Source of the DNA: Nitrososphaerota archaeon
Lineage (GTDB): Archaea; Thermoproteota; Nitrososphaeria; Nitrososphaerales; Nitrosopumilaceae
Reading direction: 5' to 3'
Assembly (NCBI GenBank): GCA_028867785.1
Contig: JAGWFS010000015.1
Location: 1 to 56,021, forward strand
DNA length: 56,021 nucleotides
The notes below the pieces were generated by a model. The model saw only the letters and a list, made by a program, of their open reading frames with translations. It had not been told where the DNA came from and made no database searches. Position 1 is the first letter of the stretch. Each line of letters begins with the position of its first letter. Below, piece by piece: positions 9,625 through 37,704 of the stretch. The position numbers and the translations under genes are program-made.

Positions 9625-10902
9625 ATGTCAAATTCCAAGGAATTGTTTTCCAGGGCAAAAAAGGTAATTCCCTCCGGAATCAACAGCCCTGTCAGATATT
9701 ACACTCCTTATCCGTTCTTTGTCACAAGGGCGCAGGGAAGCTCGCTCTGGGACGCTGACGGAAACAGGTATCTTGATTTTTGCAACGGATACGGTGCACT
9801 GCTTTTGGGTCACAGAAGAAAAGAGATTGTCTCAAGTGTAGCATCACAACTAAAGAAAGGTACGCTCTATTGCGCACCGACAGAGCTTGAAGTAGAACTG
9901 TCAGAGCTTGTATCAAAAAATTTTCCTTCCATGAAAAAAATCAGGCTGGTAAACACAGGAAGCGAGGCAACAATGACTGCCATAAGACTTGCACGAGGAC
10001 ACACAAAAAAGAAAAAGATAATCAAGTTTGAAGGATGCTATCATGGCGCACATGACTATGTATTGGTAAAGGCAGGTTCTGGCGCTGCACACAATGGAAT
10101 CTCAGTCTCCGATGGAGGACTGGATGAGGTCTCAAAGAACACGCTTGTTGTCCAGTATAACAACTCTGAAGAACTCGCCTCTGTCATGGAAAAAGAAAGG
10201 GATGTTGCTGCAGTGATAGTGGAGCCAGTTCTTGCAAACATGGGACTGGTGCTGCCGGAAAAAAATTTCTTGCGCAATCTCAGGAAGCTTACGCTGGAAA
10301 ACGACAGCCTTTTGATATTTGACGAGGTGGTGACAGGATTCAGAATGTCTCTAGGGGGAGCACAGGAGTGCTATTCCATAAAGCCTGACATTACCGCGCT
10401 TGGCAAGGCACTCGGAAATGGATTTGCCATCGCCGCAGTGGGAGGAAAGCGGGACGTCATGGACATGCTGTCTCCGGAGGGAAAGGTATACCAGGCAAGC
10501 ACGTATGCAGGCAACCCAGTATCTGTTTCTGCCGCGGTTGCATCTGTGAAGACTATGAACAAGAATAAAAACAAACTCTATCCATCACTTGAAAAGGCAT
10601 GCAGGTCACTTGCATCATCTCTGGGAGATCTTGCATCTGACATGGGCATACCGCATCAGATTAACCATGCAAGCTCCATGTTCCAGATGTTTTTCACAGA
10701 CAAGCGAGTGGTAGACTATACTACCGCAAAGGCAGCCGATGCTGCAAAATTCAAGAAACTGTTCAACGGGCTGCTAAAAAACGGAATCTTTGTAGCGCCC
10801 TCCCAATTTGAAACGGTTTTTCTCTCTTTTGCTCACACAGACGAGGACCTCAAAAAGGCAATCGACGCGTATGAAAAAGCGCTAAAGACGGTGAAAAGAT
10901 GA
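9625..10902 (+). CDS. hemL: Glutamate-1-semialdehyde 2,1-aminomutase
   Basis: PLP enzyme that converts glutamate-1-semialdehyde to 5-aminolevulinate, the second step of the C5 route. It is read from ATG 9625 (SNSKELFSRAKKVIPSGINS), the usual family start; an in-frame ATG at 9589 would add 12 residues and, with a TATA-like element at 9546-9556, could be a leaderless start. Diagnostic segments are NTGSEATMTAIRLARG, GCYHGAHD, the cofactor Asp in FDEVVTGFR and the PLP lysine in LGKALGNGF (Lys261). The length, 425 aa, is normal. Its stop overlaps the start of hemC (ATGA), so it opens the hemL-hemC-cobA-hemD operon. Confidence 0.95.
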   Translation: MSNSKELFSRAKKVIPSGINSPVRYYTPYPFFVTRAQGSSLWDADGNRYLDFCNGYGALLLGHRRKEIVSSVASQLKKGTLYCAPTELEVELSELVSKNFPSMKKIRLVNTGSEATMTAIRLARGHTKKKKIIKFEGCYHGAHDYVLVKAGSGAAHNGISVSDGGLDEVSKNTLVVQYNNSEELASVMEKERDVAAVIVEPVLANMGLVLPEKNFLRNLRKLTLENDSLLIFDEVVTGFRMSLGGAQECYSIKPDITALGKALGNGFAIAAVGGKRDVMDMLSPEGKVYQASTYAGNPVSVSAAVASVKTMNKNKNKLYPSLEKACRSLASSLGDLASDMGIPHQINHASSMFQMFFTDKRVVDYTTAKAADAAKFKKLFNGLLKNGIFVAPSQFETVFLSFAHTDEDLKKAIDAYEKALKTVKR

Positions 10903-15000: not shown

Positions 15001-16401
15001 ATGTCTTCTTTTGTCCTGTCAAAGCTTGGCACACAACACTTGGATGAAATCTCAGAGGCAAACAACGATCCATCCTGGCTAAAAGAGTACAGGAAAAAAT
15101 CCTTTTCAATATACGAGCAGCTTCCCGCCGAGGTCTCTCCGCTTTACAACAAGTATACAGACGCCAACAGGATGGACTCGTCGCAGGTTGCATTCTCGCT
15201 AAGCTCTGACACCACGCTGCCTGACTTTGTAAACGACAGGCTGTCTGAGATATCTGATAGCCCGAGCATAATCCAGATAGGTACAAACATATCAAAGATC
15301 AGCCTTTCTGCAGAACTCAAGTCAAAAGGCGTTGTCGTGTGCTCCATCCATGATGCAATAAGGGAGCACGAAGACAAGATAAGAAGGGTGTTTGAAAAAA
15401 TTGATGCAAACAAAGACAAGTATGTCGCACTGAACAACGCGTTTTTCAACTCGGGAATCTTCATCTACGTACCAAGAAACATTTCTGTGGAAAAACCAAT
15501 CCACATAATCAGCTCGCTTGCACTTGACAAGACATCGACTATATCACGAAACATAGTGATCGGCGAAGAGGGCAGCAAGGCATCGGTTGTACAGGAGATC
15601 TATGCACCCAAGTCTGAAAACCAACAGGCGTATCTGGAGGTGCTTGATACTACCGTGAACCCCAACAGCAGCATTGAGCTTGTGACACTGCAGGCAATGA
15701 GCGAGAACGCGGTAAACTTTTCGTCAAGGGCTGCAAACATTGCACAGGATGCAAGGATGAGCTGGTACCTTGGGCTGTTCGGCTCGCATCTCTCAAGATA
15801 CAAGGTTGACAATTATCTAAACGGCACGGGCGCAACGGCACACGACACGGAGGTTGTGTTTGGAAACAAGAACCAGTCCTTTGACCTGGCCTCGAACCTT
15901 ATACACAATGCACCGTCCACGATTGGCCGGGTGCTTGAAAAGTCAGTTCTCAAGGACACGTCAAAATCGCTCTTCAAGGGAATGATTAGAATTGAGACTG
16001 GCGCAACCCATTCCGAGTCTTATCTTGCGGGACATTCCATACTGCTTGACAAGGGGGCAAAATCCGATTCCATTCCGGGCCTTGAGATTCTGACAAACGA
16101 CGTCAAGGCGACGCACTCTGCATCTGTTGCACAGATGGACGAGGAGCAGCTGTTCTATCTTGCCAGCCGATGCCTCAGCAAGTCGGAGGCGCAAAAGATC
16201 ATCGTGGAAGGATTTCTCGAGCCGCTGTCAAGAAAAATGTCATACCAGATTCGGGCCTGGATAAGCTACCTCATTGAATCCAAGTGGCTTGGCAGGGATC
16301 TTACAATAAAGACAGACGAGCAGCTAAAATCAATTCTTGAAGTGGAAGAGACTAGGTATAGAGAGACTGACATCTTTGGAAGTCACTACAAGTACAGGTG
16401 A
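15001..16401 (+). CDS. sufD: Fe-S cluster assembly protein SufD
   Basis: A SufB paralog (466 aa) that forms the SufBC2D complex and is needed for iron entry. The beta-helix region shows ALNNAFFNSGIFIYVPRNISVEKPIH, the DKGAKSDSIPGLEIL stretch corresponds to [10 protein letters not shown] in SufB, and the end carries SRCLSKSEAQKIIVEGF. It begins 25 bp after the sufB stop and its own stop overlaps the Rieske gene (GTGA). The lower similarity to the SufB core and the lack of the EGCTAP motif support SufD over a second SufB. Confidence 0.92.
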   Translation: MSSFVLSKLGTQHLDEISEANNDPSWLKEYRKKSFSIYEQLPAEVSPLYNKYTDANRMDSSQVAFSLSSDTTLPDFVNDRLSEISDSPSIIQIGTNISKISLSAELKSKGVVVCSIHDAIREHEDKIRRVFEKIDANKDKYVALNNAFFNSGIFIYVPRNISVEKPIHIISSLALDKTSTISRNIVIGEEGSKASVVQEIYAPKSENQQAYLEVLDTTVNPNSSIELVTLQAMSENAVNFSSRAANIAQDARMSWYLGLFGSHLSRYKVDNYLNGTGATAHDTEVVFGNKNQSFDLASNLIHNAPSTIGRVLEKSVLKDTSKSLFKGMIRIETGATHSESYLAGHSILLDKGAKSDSIPGLEILTNDVKATHSASVAQMDEEQLFYLASRCLSKSEAQKIIVEGFLEPLSRKMSYQIRAWISYLIESKWLGRDLTIKTDEQLKSILEVEETRYRETDIFGSHYKYR

Positions 16402-16731: not shown

Positions 16732-17964
16732 GTGATAAACATTGAAAATATTCGAAACGATTTCCCGATCCTAAAGCGCAAGGTACACAAGGACAAGGCG
16801 CTGGTCTATTTTGATAACGCCGCGACCACGCAGAAGCCAATGCAGGTCATTGATTCCATAAGCCACTACTACCTACACTACAACTCTAACATACACAGGG
16901 CAGTGCATGAGCTTGCCGAAGAGGCCACTCTTGCATACGAGACAACAAGGGACAAGATTGCCAAGTTCATCAACGCAAAGAACAGGGAAGAAATTGTATT
17001 TGTAAGGGGCACGACTGAGGCAATAAACCTCGTAGCATACGCGTGGGGGAGGCAGAACATAAACAAGGACGACATTGTAGTTACGACAGAATACGAGCAC
17101 CACAGCAACATTGTTCCGTGGCAACTTTTAACAAAAGAAAGGGGCGCAAAACTAGAATACATTGGAGTAGACGACAACGGGGAGCTCATACTTGATCAGC
17201 TGAACAGGTATCTGGAAACCGGCAAGGTAAAACTTGTTACATTCAGCCAGATGTCAAACGTTCTTGGCACAATAACAAACTCTGAAGAGATTATCAGGCG
17301 CTGCAAGAAAAATGGCGTCAGGGTTCTAGTTGACGGAGCCCAGTCTGTTCCGCACATGAAGGTAGACCTTCAAAAACTTGACTGTGACTTTTTTGCATTC
17401 TCTGCGCACAAGATGCTTGGCCCGACAGGAGTCGGAGTACTGTGGGCACGAAAAGAACTCCTTGAGGCCATGGTGCCGTTCAACGGGGGAGGAGACATGA
17501 TACGAGAAGTGCACAAGTACGAGACCACATGGAACGACCTTCCGTACAAGTTTGAGGCGGGAACCCCAAACATTGCAGACGTGATTGGATTTGGAGCAGC
17601 ACTTGACTATCTTGACAAGATAGGCATGGACAAGGTGCGAGAGCACGAAGTGGAAATAACAAGATATGCACTTGACAAGATCTCGCAGATAAAGGGAATC
17701 AAGATTTACGGGCCTATGGATACTGCCAAACGCGGAGGAGTAATATCGTTTAACCTTGGAGACATTCACCCACATGACCTTGCAACAATCATCGACGAGG
17801 ACGGAGTTGCGATACGTTCCGGACACCACTGCGCGCAGGTATTGATGGAAAGACTTGACGTCTCTGCAACATCTCGAGCAAGCTTTTATATCTATAACAC
17901 AAAAGACGAAGTGGATGTTTTCATCAAGTCTCTCTACAGGGCAAAGGAGCTGTTCCGAATTTGA
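16732..17964 (+). CDS. sufS: Cysteine desulfurase SufS (group II)
   Basis: PLP enzyme that takes sulfur from cysteine as an enzyme-bound persulfide. The 410 residues contain YFDNAATTQKP, the PLP lysine in FSAHKMLGPTGVG (Lys227), and the active-site cysteine in IRSGHHCAQVL (Cys367), the short-loop form of SufS that needs a sulfur acceptor. That acceptor is probably the SufU encoded next, whose TTG start overlaps this stop (TTGA). The GTG start follows the Rieske gene by 13 bp. Confidence 0.95.
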   Translation: MINIENIRNDFPILKRKVHKDKALVYFDNAATTQKPMQVIDSISHYYLHYNSNIHRAVHELAEEATLAYETTRDKIAKFINAKNREEIVFVRGTTEAINLVAYAWGRQNINKDDIVVTTEYEHHSNIVPWQLLTKERGAKLEYIGVDDNGELILDQLNRYLETGKVKLVTFSQMSNVLGTITNSEEIIRRCKKNGVRVLVDGAQSVPHMKVDLQKLDCDFFAFSAHKMLGPTGVGVLWARKELLEAMVPFNGGGDMIREVHKYETTWNDLPYKFEAGTPNIADVIGFGAALDYLDKIGMDKVREHEVEITRYALDKISQIKGIKIYGPMDTAKRGGVISFNLGDIHPHDLATIIDEDGVAIRSGHHCAQVLMERLDVSATSRASFYIYNTKDEVDVFIKSLYRAKELFRI

Positions 17965-24493: not shown

Positions 24494-25165
24494 ATGAGCG
24501 AGCAGCGCAGGACGTTTTTCAGTTTCTCTTTCTTCCAGATTGACCCAAAATGGCGCTGGATGGCAGACCTTGCAAAGGACGAGTCGGCAAAGGAAGTGGA
24601 AAACATATTGAAAAACTCCCAGATTCCTTGCAGGTCGTATTCAACTCTTGGGCTGCGTGACGACACAGAATTCCTGCTTTGGTTTGCGTCCGACTCTGTT
24701 GAAAAAATCCAGGACGTGACATCAAAGCTATACCTGACAGTATTTGGCAAGTACATAATTCCAAGACACGTCTACCTTTCGTGCACAAGGCCGTCACTCT
24801 ACACAAAAAATCCAACAACGCATGGCTGGGTTGCAGGGGAAGAGCAAAAAAAATACGCAATCGTGTATCCGTTTATCAAGACTAGACCGTGGTATCTTCT
24901 TCCACTTGAAAAGCGAAAGGAGCTGATGGCAGAGCACATTGCAGTAGGACAAAAATATCCTGACGTGTTATTGAACACGACATACTCTTTTGGAATCCAC
25001 GACGAGGACTTTATGCTTGCATTTGAGACAGACAACCTTGACAAGTTTCAGGACCTGATAATGGACCTGCGCGAGACACGGGTCAGCGAGTACATCAAGG
25101 TTGACACCCCGATGATCGTCTGCGTCAAAAAAGACCTTATCCCGTTGATAAGGAGCCTGGGATGA
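24494..25165 (+). CDS. Chlorite dismutase / HemQ family haem protein
   Basis: 223 residues with the Cld-family double ferredoxin-like fold. The most diagnostic stretch is the second half: YPFIKTRPWYLLPLEKRKEL, then MAEHIAVGQKYPDVL with the likely proximal haem ligand His148, then NTTYSFGIHDEDFMLAFETD and LIMDLRETRVSEY. This resembles HemQ, the coproheme decarboxylase that makes haem b, rather than chlorite-degrading enzymes; from memory the W-Y-L-L-P tyrosine lies in the region where HemQ holds its catalytic Tyr. It is coupled (ATGA) to a DUF1802 gene and lies in a haem-gene neighbourhood, so a terminal haem-synthesis role is inferred. Confidence 0.85.
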   Translation: MSEQRRTFFSFSFFQIDPKWRWMADLAKDESAKEVENILKNSQIPCRSYSTLGLRDDTEFLLWFASDSVEKIQDVTSKLYLTVFGKYIIPRHVYLSCTRPSLYTKNPTTHGWVAGEEQKKYAIVYPFIKTRPWYLLPLEKRKELMAEHIAVGQKYPDVLLNTTYSFGIHDEDFMLAFETDNLDKFQDLIMDLRETRVSEYIKVDTPMIVCVKKDLIPLIRSLG

Positions 25166-25710
25166 TGAAGGCGCTAAAGGAATGGGCAACCGTAGTAAAA
25201 GCACTTGAGAACGGGAACCAAACCGTCCTTCTAAGAAAGGGGGGAATACTAGAGTCTGCGTCGGGGTTTAGGGTAGAGGCGACAAAGTTTGCACTGTTTC
25301 CGACATATGAACACCAGGACAATGCGTCTCTCAAATCGCAGTACTATGGATATCTTGCAGATGCAAGGGAGAGCCAGCCAAGGGAGGGATACAATATAGT
25401 GACATCGATTGCCGAGGTAGTGGAGGAGCGCGACATATCATCGATTGAAAAACTCGAACAGCTCTCGCAGTTTCACATATGGAACGACTCTTACATTGTA
25501 GAAAGGATGAACTGGATGCCGTCAAAACCAATGAAGGTGGTGTTTCTTCGGACCTACAAGATCTCCCCAATGGAGATACCAGTGCTGCCAGATTACCACG
25601 GCTGCAAATCTTGGATAGAGTTAAATGTAAATCCAGAGGTTGGAAAAGCTGTTTTGACTGATGCCGAACTTGAATCGCAACTTGCAGAATTTAGGAGCAT
25701 TGTAAATTGA
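25162..25710 (+). CDS. DUF1802 family protein
   Basis: 182 residues beginning ALKEWATVVKALENGNQTVL followed by LLRKGGILE, the recognised start of DUF1802 proteins, with a later FLRTYKISPMEIPVLPDYHG and CKSWIEL. The molecular function of the family is not known. The start overlaps the HemQ-like stop (ATGA) and its own stop overlaps the aldo-keto reductase (TTGA), so the three are one translationally coupled unit. Confidence 0.75.
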   Translation: MMKALKEWATVVKALENGNQTVLLRKGGILESASGFRVEATKFALFPTYEHQDNASLKSQYYGYLADARESQPREGYNIVTSIAEVVEERDISSIEKLEQLSQFHIWNDSYIVERMNWMPSKPMKVVFLRTYKISPMEIPVLPDYHGCKSWIELNVNPEVGKAVLTDAELESQLAEFRSIVN

Positions 25711-28722: not shown

Positions 28723-28811
28723 GGATGATAAACCCGACCGTAACTACAATTAAAAATGTTACCTAGATTTTCATGGAATCTATAAATATCTTACAAAGGC
28801 ATGCGAGATTG
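28723..28811. promoter_or_regulatory. Divergent promoter region for ahbAB and the precorrin-2 dehydrogenase-hemA operon
   Basis: The gap between the two tetrapyrrole transcripts is about 89 bp. A plus-strand TATA-like TATAAATA lies at 28780-28787, about 25 nt before TTG 28809/28812. This placement argues that the ATG at 28773, upstream of the TATA box, is not the true start of the plus gene. A minus-strand A/T element serves ahbAB. Shared control of the branch is likely. Confidence 0.5.
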
Positions 28812-29465
28812 TTGATAGTTGATCTCAATCTGAAGGGAAATCTGGTAATCGTTGTAGGCGGGGGAAACGAGGGGCTAAAGAAGGTAAATGCCCTGCTGAC
28901 ACAGGACTGCAAGATTCTTCTCATTAGCGACTCGACCAACAGGCAGATTGACAGGTACGTCAAGCAAAAAAAGATTGAATTCAAAAAAATAAGACTTGCA
29001 AACGCTGATTTTATAAAAAAATACAGGCCGTTTGCAGTCCTTGCAACAACCGATGACAGGGATCTGAACAGAAAGATCGTACAGCAGGCAAAAAAGATGA
29101 GGTGCTATGCGTACGCTGCAGACGATCCGGAGGTGAGCGACTTTGCGTTCGGCTCTGTCATAAACATACAGGATACCGTGCAGATAGCTGTGTCAACAGG
29201 AGGCCGGAGTCCTGCAATGGCAAGGAGGCTGAGGATGCAGGCAGAAAAGGTCTTCAAGAAACTTGTGACAAAAGAAGACATACGCCAGATAAAACTGCAG
29301 GACTTTGCCAGGCGCGCGGCAAAGACAAAACTTGGCACGTTTCCAGAACGCAAAAAGTTCCTCTACAGTGTCATGAATGACAATCGTATCAAACAATTAA
29401 TAGCTGACGGAAATCTAAAAAAAGCACAGAGCAAAGTGATCGAGATGTTGGGTGATCTTAACTGA
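28812..29465 (+). CDS. sirC: Precorrin-2 dehydrogenase (siroheme synthase NAD-domain)
   Basis: Oxidises precorrin-2 to sirohydrochlorin with NAD. About 217 residues from TTG 28812 (IVDLNLKGNLVIVVGGGNEG), the normal family opening with its NAD-binding glycine loop. Other signatures are VLATTDDRDLNRKIVQQAKK and VSTGGRSPAMARRLR. Single-domain Met8/SirC enzymes in some organisms also insert iron; no separate chelatase is seen here, so that remains open. Its stop overlaps the CTG start I propose for hemA (CTGA). Confidence 0.88.
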   Translation: MIVDLNLKGNLVIVVGGGNEGLKKVNALLTQDCKILLISDSTNRQIDRYVKQKKIEFKKIRLANADFIKKYRPFAVLATTDDRDLNRKIVQQAKKMRCYAYAADDPEVSDFAFGSVINIQDTVQIAVSTGGRSPAMARRLRMQAEKVFKKLVTKEDIRQIKLQDFARRAAKTKLGTFPERKKFLYSVMNDNRIKQLIADGNLKKAQSKVIEMLGDLN

Positions 29466-30718
29466 CAGGCCAGGTAATAAACGCAAGAGTTACTTTTAGA
29501 AAGTCTCCAATCCACATGCTGGAGAGGTTTACGTTTCCAGATGTTGATTCTGCATACGATTCCTTTTTGAGGCATTCCGGGCTGCAGGAATGCGTACTGC
29601 TGCAGACCTGCAACAGGGTTGAACTGTTTGGATTTGGAAATAGCGAGGATCTTGAAAAGATAAAAAAGACATGGGCGTCAGTGTCAGGGCTTGAAGAAAA
29701 CGCGTTCAGGGAAAATCTTGAGGTGAGCGAGGGAACAGAGGCCTACCAGCACCTGCTCAAGCTGACATCGGGGCTTGACTCGCTTGTTGTGGGGGAGGAG
29801 CAGATTCTGGGGCAGATAAAAGAATCAATGAATGCCGCAAGACAGCTAAAGGCATCAGGAAGCGCACTTAATACCATGTTTGAAAAGGCGATTCGCGTCG
29901 GCACAAGGGTAAGGCAGGCAACGGGAATCAGCAAGGGGAGCATCTCGATTGGCTCGATGGCAGTAAAACTTGCAGAGGAGAATATAGACGACCTGAAATC
30001 AAAAAGGATTCTGCTCATTGGAACAGGAGAGGCTGCAAGCCTTGTTGCAAAATCGCTCAAAAAACGAGGAATAGACTTTGGGGTGACAAGCAGGACGTTT
30101 GAGCGCTCCAAGTCCTTTGCGGATACTGTAGGGGGAAACCCTGTCAAGTTCGAGGAAGCAATTGCAAACTTTAATCTAGTCGACGTTCTCTTTGTCGCAA
30201 CGATTGCGCCATACTTCCTGGTTACATATGACAGGGTAAAGGAGGCGATGGAATCGCGCAAAAACGGCATGATGATAATGGACCTTTCAAATCCGAGGAC
30301 AGTGGACGAAAAGGTGTCAACAATCAAGAAGATAAAGATGATGAACCTGGACCAGATTGCGGAGATGGTTGACAAGAACATGCGCACAAGGATGGGGGTG
30401 GTATCGTCAGCGGAGAAGATAATTAACGAGGAGCTCCCAGTAATGGAGGCTGCAATGAAAAGGCTGGAAGTGGAACCCATAGTAAAGAATGTCTTCAAGG
30501 AAATTGATCAGGCAAGGGTCAAGGAGCTCAAAAAGGCACTGCAGATGCTTGGAGAAAAAGACGAGCAAAAAATTCGAATCATTGATCAGCTGACGCAGGC
30601 CATAGTGGAGGATATCATATCTGTACCGATGAACAACCTGAGAAGGGCATCGGAGCAGGGAGATTCCGAGATTCTAAAAACGGCAACAAAACTCTTTGAC
30701 TATAAGACAAAAGAGTAA
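29462..30718 (+). CDS. hemA: Glutamyl-tRNA reductase, probable CTG start
   Basis: First enzyme of the C5 tetrapyrrole route, reducing Glu-tRNA(Glu) to glutamate-1-semialdehyde. The catalytic cysteine lies in LLQTCNRVELF, the NADPH-binding loop in ILLIGTGEAASLVAKSL, and the helical dimerisation spine at the C-terminus. The first ATG (29516) would remove a conserved N-terminal strand; the sequence before it (VINARVTFRKSPIHMLERF) is clearly coding. The only candidate between it and the upstream in-frame stop is CTG 29462, which overlaps the previous stop as CTGA, the same junction form as ATGA, GTGA and TTGA elsewhere here. 418 aa is the normal length. Confidence 0.9.
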   Translation: MTGQVINARVTFRKSPIHMLERFTFPDVDSAYDSFLRHSGLQECVLLQTCNRVELFGFGNSEDLEKIKKTWASVSGLEENAFRENLEVSEGTEAYQHLLKLTSGLDSLVVGEEQILGQIKESMNAARQLKASGSALNTMFEKAIRVGTRVRQATGISKGSISIGSMAVKLAEENIDDLKSKRILLIGTGEAASLVAKSLKKRGIDFGVTSRTFERSKSFADTVGGNPVKFEEAIANFNLVDVLFVATIAPYFLVTYDRVKEAMESRKNGMMIMDLSNPRTVDEKVSTIKKIKMMNLDQIAEMVDKNMRTRMGVVSSAEKIINEELPVMEAAMKRLEVEPIVKNVFKEIDQARVKELKKALQMLGEKDEQKIRIIDQLTQAIVEDIISVPMNNLRRASEQGDSEILKTATKLFDYKTKE

Positions 30719-31025: not shown

Positions 31026-32006
31026 ATGTCCTATCCTAACGTGCGTCTCAGAAGACTGCGACAGAGCAGCAAGATTCGCGAACTGTTAGAAGAGGTCAGG
31101 CTTTCACCAAAGGACCTAATCTGCCCTGTATTCGTGCAGGAGGATCTCAAATCAAAACTTGAGGGCGACTCGATGCCGGGGTTTGAGAGGCTGCCTCCAA
31201 AGGACGTGGTCGACGAGGTCAACTCCATTGCGAACCTCAAGATTCCGGCAATCATGGTTTTTGGAATACCGTCACACAAGGATGACGGGGGAACGTCCGC
31301 ATTTGCGCAGGACGGCGTGGTGCAAAAGGCAATAGCTGAAATCAGGAAAAACCTTGGAAACGGGATTGCAATAATGTCAGACGTCTGCCTGTGCCAGTAT
31401 ACAAGCTCGGGACACTGCGGGCTGGTAAAAGGAGACAAGATTGACAATGACTCTAGTCTTGGCGTGCTTGCAAGGACTGCCGTAAGCCAGGCCCGAGCTG
31501 GGGCCGATGTCGTATCGCCGTCTGCAATGATGGACGGACAGGTAAAGGCAATCAGGACGGCACTTGACGACGCAGGATTTACCGACGTTGCAATAATGTC
31601 GCACTCTGCAAAGCACCGATCATCCCTTTACTCGCCTTTCAAGGACATGGCGCATTCTGCACCGCAGTTTGGCGACAGGAAGACCTACCAGCTTCCGTAT
31701 ACAAACCCAAAGGAGGCCATGCGGGAGGTAGAGACGGACATTGCAGAAGGCGTGGATGTTGTAATGATAAAGCCGGCTCTTGCATATCTTGACCTGATTG
31801 CAATGACAAGGAGTAGGTTCAACGTGCCTATATCTGCATACAGCGTTTCAGGGGAATACGCGCTTGTAAAGGCTGCCGCCATGCAGGGCTGGCTCGACGA
31901 AAAAGAGGTGACACTAGAGCTCCTTACTGCCATAAAGAGGGCAGGGGCAGATATGATAGTAACATATTTCTCAAAGATTGCCGCCAAAGCTCTTGGCGAG
32001 AAATGA
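31026..32006 (+). CDS. hemB: Porphobilinogen synthase (5-aminolevulinate dehydratase)
   Basis: Joins two 5-aminolevulinates to porphobilinogen. 326 aa. The cysteine-rich zinc site is present (DVCLCQYTSSGHCGLV), so it is the zinc-dependent class. The Schiff-base lysines lie in MSHSAKHRSSLYSPF and VMIKPALAYLDL. N-terminal RLRRLRQSSKIRELLEE is typical. The stop overlaps the next gene (ATGA). It lies 307 bp after hemA, with its own A/T-rich promoter. Confidence 0.96.
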   Translation: MSYPNVRLRRLRQSSKIRELLEEVRLSPKDLICPVFVQEDLKSKLEGDSMPGFERLPPKDVVDEVNSIANLKIPAIMVFGIPSHKDDGGTSAFAQDGVVQKAIAEIRKNLGNGIAIMSDVCLCQYTSSGHCGLVKGDKIDNDSSLGVLARTAVSQARAGADVVSPSAMMDGQVKAIRTALDDAGFTDVAIMSHSAKHRSSLYSPFKDMAHSAPQFGDRKTYQLPYTNPKEAMREVETDIAEGVDVVMIKPALAYLDLIAMTRSRFNVPISAYSVSGEYALVKAAAMQGWLDEKEVTLELLTAIKRAGADMIVTYFSKIAAKALGEK

Positions 32007-36122: not shown

Positions 36123-37079
36123 ATGATAGTTAATAGTAAGACGCCCAGACAAGAGTTTGTATTCCAGTCAAAGACTGGCGAGAAATGCCCGTCCAGTGGC
36201 AACTCACATGGACCGCTGATAACTGACAGCATAAGGGGTGAGATACTGTGTGCAAGCTGTGGCTCTGTACTTGCAGACAAGGTGGAAGACTCGGGTCCTG
36301 AGCAGAGATCATTTTCAATGGAAGAATATTCCCAGAATGCAAGAACTGGGCTTGCATCTACATTATCCATTCACGACAGGGGACTGTCAACAATGATTGG
36401 AAATGCCGACAGGGACGCATCCGGGAACTCGATATCATCATACATGAAATACGCGTTCAACAGGTTGCGAACATGGGACAGCAGAAGCAAGTCAAACTCG
36501 TCGGATAGGAATTTAAAGACAGCATTTTCCATAATGTCAAGCGTGCAGTCAAAGCTTGAGGTCTCTGACACCGTGGTTGAAAGGGCGTCCTACATTTACA
36601 GAAAAGCGTTGAACAAAAACATCATCAGGGGAAGAACCATATCGGGAATGATCCTGTCTGCTCTGTACGTTGCATGCAGGGAATCCAATGTTCCAAGGAC
36701 ACTGCAGGACATTGCAAATGTGGGAAACATCTCGTTCAAGGATCTCTCAAGGCACTACCGAGTGCTTGTAAAATCTCTAGAGCTACAGGTAGACTCTTTC
36801 AACCCGCTAGAGTTTGTGTCAAAGATTGGAACGGCAGTGGGCATCAGTGAAAAGGCAAAAAGGGATGCACTTGAGATACTCAACAGGGCCCACGAGAAGG
36901 GAATAACGGACGGAAAAAACCCAGTCTCTCTTGCGGCAACCGCAGTGTTCCTGTCAGGCCTGATAAACGAGGAAAAGGCCACCCAGAACAGCATAGCCAA
37001 GGCATCTGGAGTCAGCAGCGTAACGATTAGAAACGTCTCAAAGGTTCTCATAAAACAGCTGGGAATGAAAAACCTGTGA
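36123..37079 (+). CDS. tfb: Transcription initiation factor B (TFB) with atypical zinc ribbon
   Basis: 318 residues; recruits RNA polymerase to TBP-bound promoters. The two cyclin-like repeats are clear (ERASYIYRKALNKNIIRGRT, ISGMILSALYVACRESNVPR; NPVSLAATAVFLSGLINEEK, then TIRNVSKVLIKQLG). The N-terminal ribbon is altered: C22-P-S-S where the second Cys should be Ser25, with His29 nearby, and C43-A-S-C46. Zinc might be held by His or absent. Thaumarchaea hold several TFBs; this is likely a specialised one. Its stop overlaps the next gene (GTGA). Confidence 0.9.
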   Translation: MIVNSKTPRQEFVFQSKTGEKCPSSGNSHGPLITDSIRGEILCASCGSVLADKVEDSGPEQRSFSMEEYSQNARTGLASTLSIHDRGLSTMIGNADRDASGNSISSYMKYAFNRLRTWDSRSKSNSSDRNLKTAFSIMSSVQSKLEVSDTVVERASYIYRKALNKNIIRGRTISGMILSALYVACRESNVPRTLQDIANVGNISFKDLSRHYRVLVKSLELQVDSFNPLEFVSKIGTAVGISEKAKRDALEILNRAHEKGITDGKNPVSLAATAVFLSGLINEEKATQNSIAKASGVSSVTIRNVSKVLIKQLGMKNL

Positions 37080-37704
37080 AAACGCTTCTAGTGCACTATA
37101 CGCCTAGAAACGAGAGGTCTAACACCAAAAAACTAGTGGACACGTTCCACTCTGAGATAAAAAACTCGGAGATTGAGGAGCTCAACCTTTCAAGGGATCT
37201 CCTGATCTTTTTCTTGAGGAAAACCTGGCTGCATACATACCGCGAAACTATCTGGGCCAAGACCTAGGGCCAGGCCAAATAAAGTCAATGGCCAAGATGG
37301 ACCGCATGACAGAACAGCTGATATCTGCCGACGTCGTGGTCGTGGCCTATCCCATGTATAATTTTTCCATGCCTGCATCAGTCAAGGCCTGGTTTGACTC
37401 TGTAATGCTAAAGGGAAAGACATGGGATGCAAAAGATGGAAGCTATGCAGGACTGATGAAGGGAAAAAAAGCGCTTGTGCTTGTTGCAAGCGGCGGGTTT
37501 TACGGGAAGGAACCCATGGCATCATGGGAGCACGCGCTGTCCCTTGGGAAAACAGAATTCCAGTTCATGGGATATTCTGACGTGCGCGGAGTTCTTGCAG
37601 AAGGGATGAATGCAGGAGACGAAAACAAAATGTCAGTCCTGACAAAGTCTCTCAGGCAGGTGCAGGATATTGCCCGCGAGTGGTATGGAAACGGCAAGGC
37701 CTGA
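37076..37704 (+). pseudogene. Flavodoxin-fold NAD(P)H dehydrogenase / azoreductase, frameshifted near 37200
   Basis: The GTG start overlaps the tfb stop. The first frame gives LLVHYTPRNERSNTKKLVDT and EIEELNLSRDL; one base is missing near 37196-37201, after which another frame continues as PDLFLEENLAAYIPRNYLGQ, then DRMTEQLISADVVVVAYPMY and NFSMPASVKAWFDSVM to a stop at 37704. These are AzoR/FMN-NADH quinone reductase motifs. The intact protein would be about 209 aa. It may be a pseudogene or an error; note a second frameshift 2 kb away. Confidence 0.8.

Follow-up and report, generated by a model that had tools for sequence, protein, structure and literature searches.

We analyzed a window of 56,021 nucleotides, contig C66 of a 2.55-Mb draft genome whose closest named relatives are Nitrosotalea and other thaumarchaeal genomes, a lineage of soil ammonia-oxidizing archaea. 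A gene of the met8/cysG-N type (siroheme synthase N-terminal/precorrin-2 dehydrogenase) runs there into hemA, whose product catalyzes the first step of haem and B12 synthesis. The features at the junction are as follows.

28773–29465, + strand: met8/cysG-N type gene (TIGR01470 cysG_Nterm, 106 bits; PF13241)
29451–29457, + strand: Shine-Dalgarno (SD) element GGTGATC within the met8-type gene, 4 nt before the CTG, complementary over 7 nt to the 16S rRNA 3′ end
29459–29461, + strand: in-frame TAA closing the hemA frame directly before the CTG (read from the sequence)
29462–29464, + strand: CTG, the putative start codon of hemA, sharing TG with the upstream stop in CTGA (overlap comparison, tree and conservation)
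29462–30718, + strand: hemA, glutamyl-tRNA reductase, 418 aa (TIGR01035, 336.1 bits; PF05201/PF01488/PF00745)
29463–29465, + strand: stop codon TGA of the met8-type gene
29477–29515, + strand: hemA codons 6–18 (INARVTFRKSPIH), conserved coding sequence 5′ of the first ATG (pN/pS 0.018)
29516–29518, + strand: ATG, the first in-frame ATG, GTG or TTG of hemA, judged not to be the start (ACA in L013, GCG in L025)

The met8-type gene lies in a frame open from 28767 to 29465, its start at 28773 being assumed as the first ATG of that frame, and it ends in GGT GAT CTT AAC TGA. After the TAA, the hemA frame continues as CTG ACA GGC CAG GTA ATA AAC GCA AGA GTT ACT. Membership of the product in the glutamyl-tRNA reductase family is clear: the TIGR01035 score of 336.1 bits compares with a curated cutoff of 209.55, and PF05201, PF01488 and PF00745 are all above their cutoffs. 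A family search recovered hemA relatives in 248 of 250 genomes of the family. The initial annotation proposed that hemA starts with the CTG, and the positions that it gave are accurate: TAA at 29459–29461, CTG at 29462–29464, TGA at 29463–29465, no ATG, GTG or TTG before the ATG at 29516, and an open frame to 30718.

The stretch between the TAA and ATG 29516 had been described as coding, and comparison within the genus bears this out. By simple Nei–Gojobori counts over all pairs of 34 Nitrosotalea rows (those coded g1, together with L078), which are not independent of one another, pN/pS was 0.018 for codons 6–18, 0.157 for codons 19–155 and 0.58 for codons 2–5. ATG 29516 as the true start, with the sequence before it untranslated or vestigial, has in its favor that this is the first canonical codon and that an ATG stands at the equivalent position in 32 of the 34 rows; against it are the very low pN/pS of codons 6–18, the ACA and GCG that replace this ATG in L013 and L025, and the PF05201 match, which begins at hemA residue 10 with profile position 3. 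Together the same three observations place the start 5′ of codon 7. We consider initiation at ATG 29516 to be already contradicted by the sequence comparison and give it next to no chance, and we conclude that hemA is translated from codon 6 onward.

To compare the junction across relatives, we assembled 108 hemA loci, comprising the 30 best family-search matches, 20 regions chosen to cover the remainder of g1 and further genera, and 58 loci from the named collection. Two of them, L104 and L106, are without the N-terminus, and merging identical junctions yielded 71 distinct junctions, an uneven sample of related rows that stands for 248 genomes with hemA, so that Fisher values computed on these rows serve as description only. 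A met8 homologue directly precedes hemA in all 71, and in 70 the met8 stop and the hemA frame share an in-frame 4-nt overlap, in the form ATGA (42), CTGA (19), ATAA (6), TTGA (2) or ATAG (1). The exception, L012, reads TAATG with TGA next in frame. With L012 counted as ATG, the hemA codon at the overlap is ATG in 43 rows, CTG in 19, ATA in 7, TTG in 2 and GTG in none, so that 26 of the 71 rows, and the window among them, have a codon other than ATG, GTG or TTG at this place. In 23 rows (18 CTG and 5 ATA) there is no ATG, GTG or TTG at all between the in-frame stop and about codon 17. The remaining non-canonical rows are L038 and L100, which have ATA with an ATG two codons upstream, and L008, with a GTG four codons downstream. 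An ATG further upstream in relatives, which would have spoken for a different start, occurs in a few rows (e.g., L038, L043, L095–L098 and L100) and in none of the 23.

Non-canonical codons at this overlap recur across the tree. The overlap codon in Nitrosotalea (g1 plus L078) is CTG in 19 rows, ATG in 11, TTG in 2 and ATA in 2 (n = 34); in genus g18 it is ATA in all three rows, and in the outgroup genera the homologous codon is ATG. The CTGA overlap is also present in the complete genome of Ca. Nitrosotalea devanaterra (L023/L073), and since the same tetranucleotide stands in 19 of 71 junctions including this one, it reflects neither chance nor a sequencing error. A maximum likelihood tree from which the overlap codons were excluded needs 11 codon changes or more, and the state switches from canonical to non-canonical or back at least 10 times, with ATA present in at least five separate places (L100, L038, g18, L007 and L018); the tree was built by a quick method, several deep g1 branches are poorly supported, and the switch count gives no direction. 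The comparison of junctions, the tree and the conservation together strongly support the CTG within the CTGA overlap as the probable start of hemA.

The base composition of the overlap argues that the codon is maintained as a start. At the overlap, 63 of 71 rows stop with TGA. The same codon accounts for 223 of 943 stops in the N. devanaterra set (G179) and 215 of 932 in the relative G216, and of 190 orthologues that end in TGA in G179, only 86 also do so in G216. Set against this background use and turnover, the third base of the hemA codon is held as G, as in a start codon; if only the stop counted, TAA and TAG would be common, which shows that the identity of the hemA codon matters. NTG is preferred at the overlap. 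Choice of the first base is not wholly free, since G occurs in none of the 71 rows, and ATA shows that the third base can vary. A start slightly downstream, at codon 5 (GTA, GTT or ATA) or codon 6 (ATC, ATT or ATA), would be compatible with the weak constraint on codons 2–5 and with ATH at codon 6 in 33 of the 34 Nitrosotalea rows. Such a start would itself be near-cognate and hence still non-canonical; the SD in the window ends 4 nt from codon 1 and about 19 nt from codon 6, codon 1 is ATG in the outgroups, the overlap TGA is retained far above background, and length differences at the N-terminus stay in frame with the overlap in all rows. We therefore regard a start at codon 5 or 6 as unlikely.

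An extended SD element accompanies the non-canonical starts. As a reference we used the 16S rRNA of relatives, whose 3′ end is GGATCACCTCCTTA in G179, G180, G237 and G216 (L109–L112), the window's own assembly giving no 16S match. In the 23 rows without an alternative start, the SD match is 5 nt in 2, 6 nt in 3, 7 nt in 8 and 8 nt in 10, i.e., at least 7 nt in 18 of 23; in canonical rows it is below 4 nt in 6, 4 nt in 21, 5 nt in 6, and 6, 7 and 8 nt in 4 each. A match of at least 7 nt precedes only 1 of 55 canonical 4-nt-overlap genes of G179, where the scanned stretch was slightly shorter. In most g1 rows, the TGA within the SD closes the hemA frame two codons upstream. We considered whether the long SD compensates for a poor codon; the raw counts fit this idea, but the independent pairs provide no test of it, as the SD differs in only about 1.5 of 9 pairs and the SD and start-codon states are inseparable from ancestry. 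Because an SD of at least 6 nt is present in 10 of the 13 canonical Nitrosotalea rows as well and the independent pairs barely differ, we read the long SD as a permissive setting and not as proven compensation.

A hemA start codon would be dispensable if ribosomes shifted by −1 at the end of met8 and produced a Met8–HemA fusion. The two frames are indeed related by −1, and the met8-type enzyme and HemA serve connected pathways. Yet the TAA abuts the CTG in the window, so that only the last codon, AAC, could slip, and it would slip onto UAA, with which tRNA-Asn cannot pair; the bases before the stop vary across rows with no common slippery sequence, the predicted fold is no better than expected (z = +1.09), and outgroups have ATG at the overlap. 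With neither a conserved slippery site nor a stimulatory structure, a programmed frameshift is very improbable. The same fold result, no better than that of shuffled sequences, led us to reject an mRNA intron or structure at the met8–hemA junction. A search for an alternative initiator tRNA in the N. devanaterra stretches with ARAGORN, which can miss intron-bearing tRNAs, returned only two Met tRNAs with a CAT anticodon.

The initial annotation had further supposed that the first base of the restart codon is free, such that ribosomes re-initiate at any NTG within NTGA. The 11 other NTGA sites that it named in the window are all present, and ten are in frame with genes supported by homology; the start at 37076 is doubtful because two overlapping ORFs there match one G179 ORF. 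These two ORFs (window 37031–37704) match different parts of that ORF, suggesting a frameshift or sequence error. All 11 codons are ATG, GTG or TTG, which are ordinary starts, and so the sites say nothing special about the rule. In support of a general rule, all four NTGA forms do occur in the window and in the genomes. At five control overlaps, however, none of 133 rows was without a canonical start within two codons, compared with 23 of 71 at hemA. Overlapping rows numbered 5 of 7 at 16398, 11 of 11 at 17961, 28 of 34 at 25162, 33 of 34 at 25707 and 56 of 61 at 32003, drawn from the same loci plus the G179 and G216 stretches; 10899, 11831, 12571, 46077 and 47684, with at most two rows each, were not counted. 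Eight of the 133 rows are non-canonical at the overlap itself, and in each of these a canonical codon follows within one or two codons.

Genome scans likewise weigh against free choice of the first base. NTGA overlaps near the alignment start in the G179 stretches comprise 44 ATGA, 17 TTGA, 4 GTGA and 2 CTGA; the CTGA pair consists of hemA and one CTGATG, leaving hemA alone without an adjacent canonical codon. The G216 stretches have 49 ATGA, 11 TTGA, 3 GTGA and 4 CTGA, and contribute one further clear case, cbf5, as the second CTGA without a close canonical codon. Together with the lack of GTG among the 71 hemA rows, these results make a general NTG rule improbable, and such a rule does not foresee the ATA of ATAA and ATAG, in which the third base changes.

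We also scanned for conserved sequence 5′ of the first canonical codon in 860 testable orthologue pairs from the G179 stretches and 854 from G216; the scan requires at least eight aligned upstream residues and misses genes in which a canonical codon soon follows a non-canonical start. It returned 22 candidates in each genome, most of which we rejected by eye as overlapping upstream gene sequence, shadow ORFs or alignment run-on. Beyond hemA, we retained as unproven leads genes that we take to be cbf5 (G216), uppS (both genomes), a helicase (G179), and carA and a cysteine-synthase-like gene (both G216), names assigned from the sequences rather than by family search. The cbf5/truB homologue (L224:10308–11300, minus strand) has an apparent CTG start in a CTGA overlap where the homologous place in G179 is ATG. 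The uppS-like cis-prenyltransferase gene (L186:11418–12197, plus strand, in G179; L234:10013–10792, minus strand, in G216) overlaps its upstream stop as ATAA or ATAG, and in G216 no ATG, GTG or TTG precedes its ILDGNRRW motif. Because the stop before uppS is GAATAA or GAATAG and not TGA in the Nitrosotalea and g18 rows in which it was recognized, its ATA gives little sign of being maintained as a start. The helicase-like ORF (L118:8927–11674, plus strand) has no canonical start at its conserved N-terminus, its first canonical codon being codon 49, and the conserved N-termini of carA (L246 from about 8793, plus strand) and of the cysteine-synthase-like ORF (L214, about 9691–10686, minus strand) are also without one.

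Two further features of these genomes were observed in passing. In carB, an insert separates GEAGE from FDYSG; it measures 20 nt in G179, where the frame is lost, and 21 nt in G216, where in-frame stops result (L150:11801 and L246:10066 are the positions of TTCGAC after the insert). Excision would give the same protein in both genomes, and the flanking sequences base-pair into a bulge-helix-bulge-like fold; this is possibly a very small archaeal mRNA intron, and our literature search found no report of such a case in carB. An 18-nt pattern is repeated 85 times in G216 (C1, about 58770–62612) and 49 times in G222 (C1, about 1764739–1766136), with many copies at 54- or 60-base spacing, and so forms a repeat array.

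We propose that in Nitrosotalea and g18, translation of hemA very probably begins at a near-cognate codon whose place is set by the met8 stop together with the long SD. The start would be CUG in the window and AUA, UUG or AUG in relatives, in each case overlapping the met8-type stop. After terminating met8 at UGA, the ribosome or its small subunit would rest on the overlap, retained by the unusually long SD–anti-SD duplex (GGUGAUC, 4 nt upstream), and initiator Met-tRNA would be accepted on the P-site CUG despite the mismatch, so that the protein would still begin with methionine. How much HemA is made would then depend on translation of met8, and the output would probably stay low. Drift at the first codon position, and at times at the third, may have come about because the site is fixed by stop and SD and not by perfect pairing with AUG; that NTG is still preferred shows that codon identity continues to matter. 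A bolder version, in which stop and SD leave codon identity nearly dispensable and hemA alone is subject to a cellular, codon-tolerant form of termination-reinitiation acting as a dose-limiting, aIF1-sensitive control of entry into tetrapyrrole synthesis, strikes us as doubtful.

Comparison with known systems suggests which parts of this proposal are new. In excerpts of a review of archaeal initiation, the start codons are AUG, GUG and UUG (PMC7531240). Termination-reinitiation at overlaps has been studied by experiment in Haloferax and E. coli, according to part of Huber 2019 (PMC6728339); in the portion of Huber 2023 used here, −4 overlaps are ATGA or GTGA and every start codon has G as its last base, ATT being a possible rare exception (PMC10666635), and an excerpt of a 2025 review writes the −4 overlap as NTGA (PMC12548453). 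The hemA junction resembles these archaeal and bacterial −4 nt NTGA systems, as described in those parts of the three papers, in that stop and start share two bases, the SD lies in the upstream gene and the pair is co-functional. It differs from the −4 overlaps of that portion of Huber 2023 in that CTG or ATA replaces the start and the codon switches repeatedly (PMC10666635). A word search for CTG and CTGA found neither in the main text of PMC6728339 or PMC10666635. On the strength of this literature, reuse of the terminating ribosome (coupling) would seem to fit better than plain SD-driven initiation. Excerpts of work on Sulfolobus report that aIF1 discriminates against non-canonical start codons (PMC8211752), and relaxed checking would therefore need the long SD or the post-termination state.

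Non-AUG restart codons are usable, with AUG preferred, in calicivirus termination-reinitiation as excerpted from PMC3542737. There too, complementarity to rRNA holds the post-termination subunit, a resemblance of logic only, since that system, unlike the hemA junction, is eukaryotic and uses eIF3, 18S rRNA and an unrelated sequence (same excerpts, PMC3542737). We found no CUG or AUA start at an archaeal hemA, and no start-codon turnover at a fixed overlap, in the open-licence PMC literature. While the −4 overlap and its coupling are already known, the predicted CUG or AUA start of hemA and its turnover at a fixed overlap appear to be new.

The AUU of infC is a near-cognate start in bacteria, and hemA would share with it a start other than AUG, GUG or UUG. 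So would small ORFs of Methanosarcina mazei, in which Ribo-seq, as reported in part of PMC11456600, assigns CTG starts to 5% of unannotated small ORFs. Unlike these cases, hemA is a conserved metabolic gene with genus-wide codon turnover, tied to a stop overlap. Gene callers limited to ATG, GTG and TTG would place the hemA start at residue 18 or 19 for 21 of the 71 rows and further downstream for two more, losing conserved sequence. The AUG, UUG, CUG and AUA changes of hemA within one genus, at a fixed overlap, form a natural allele series, which would let one ask whether start-codon checking is laxer in post-termination ribosomes than in new ones.
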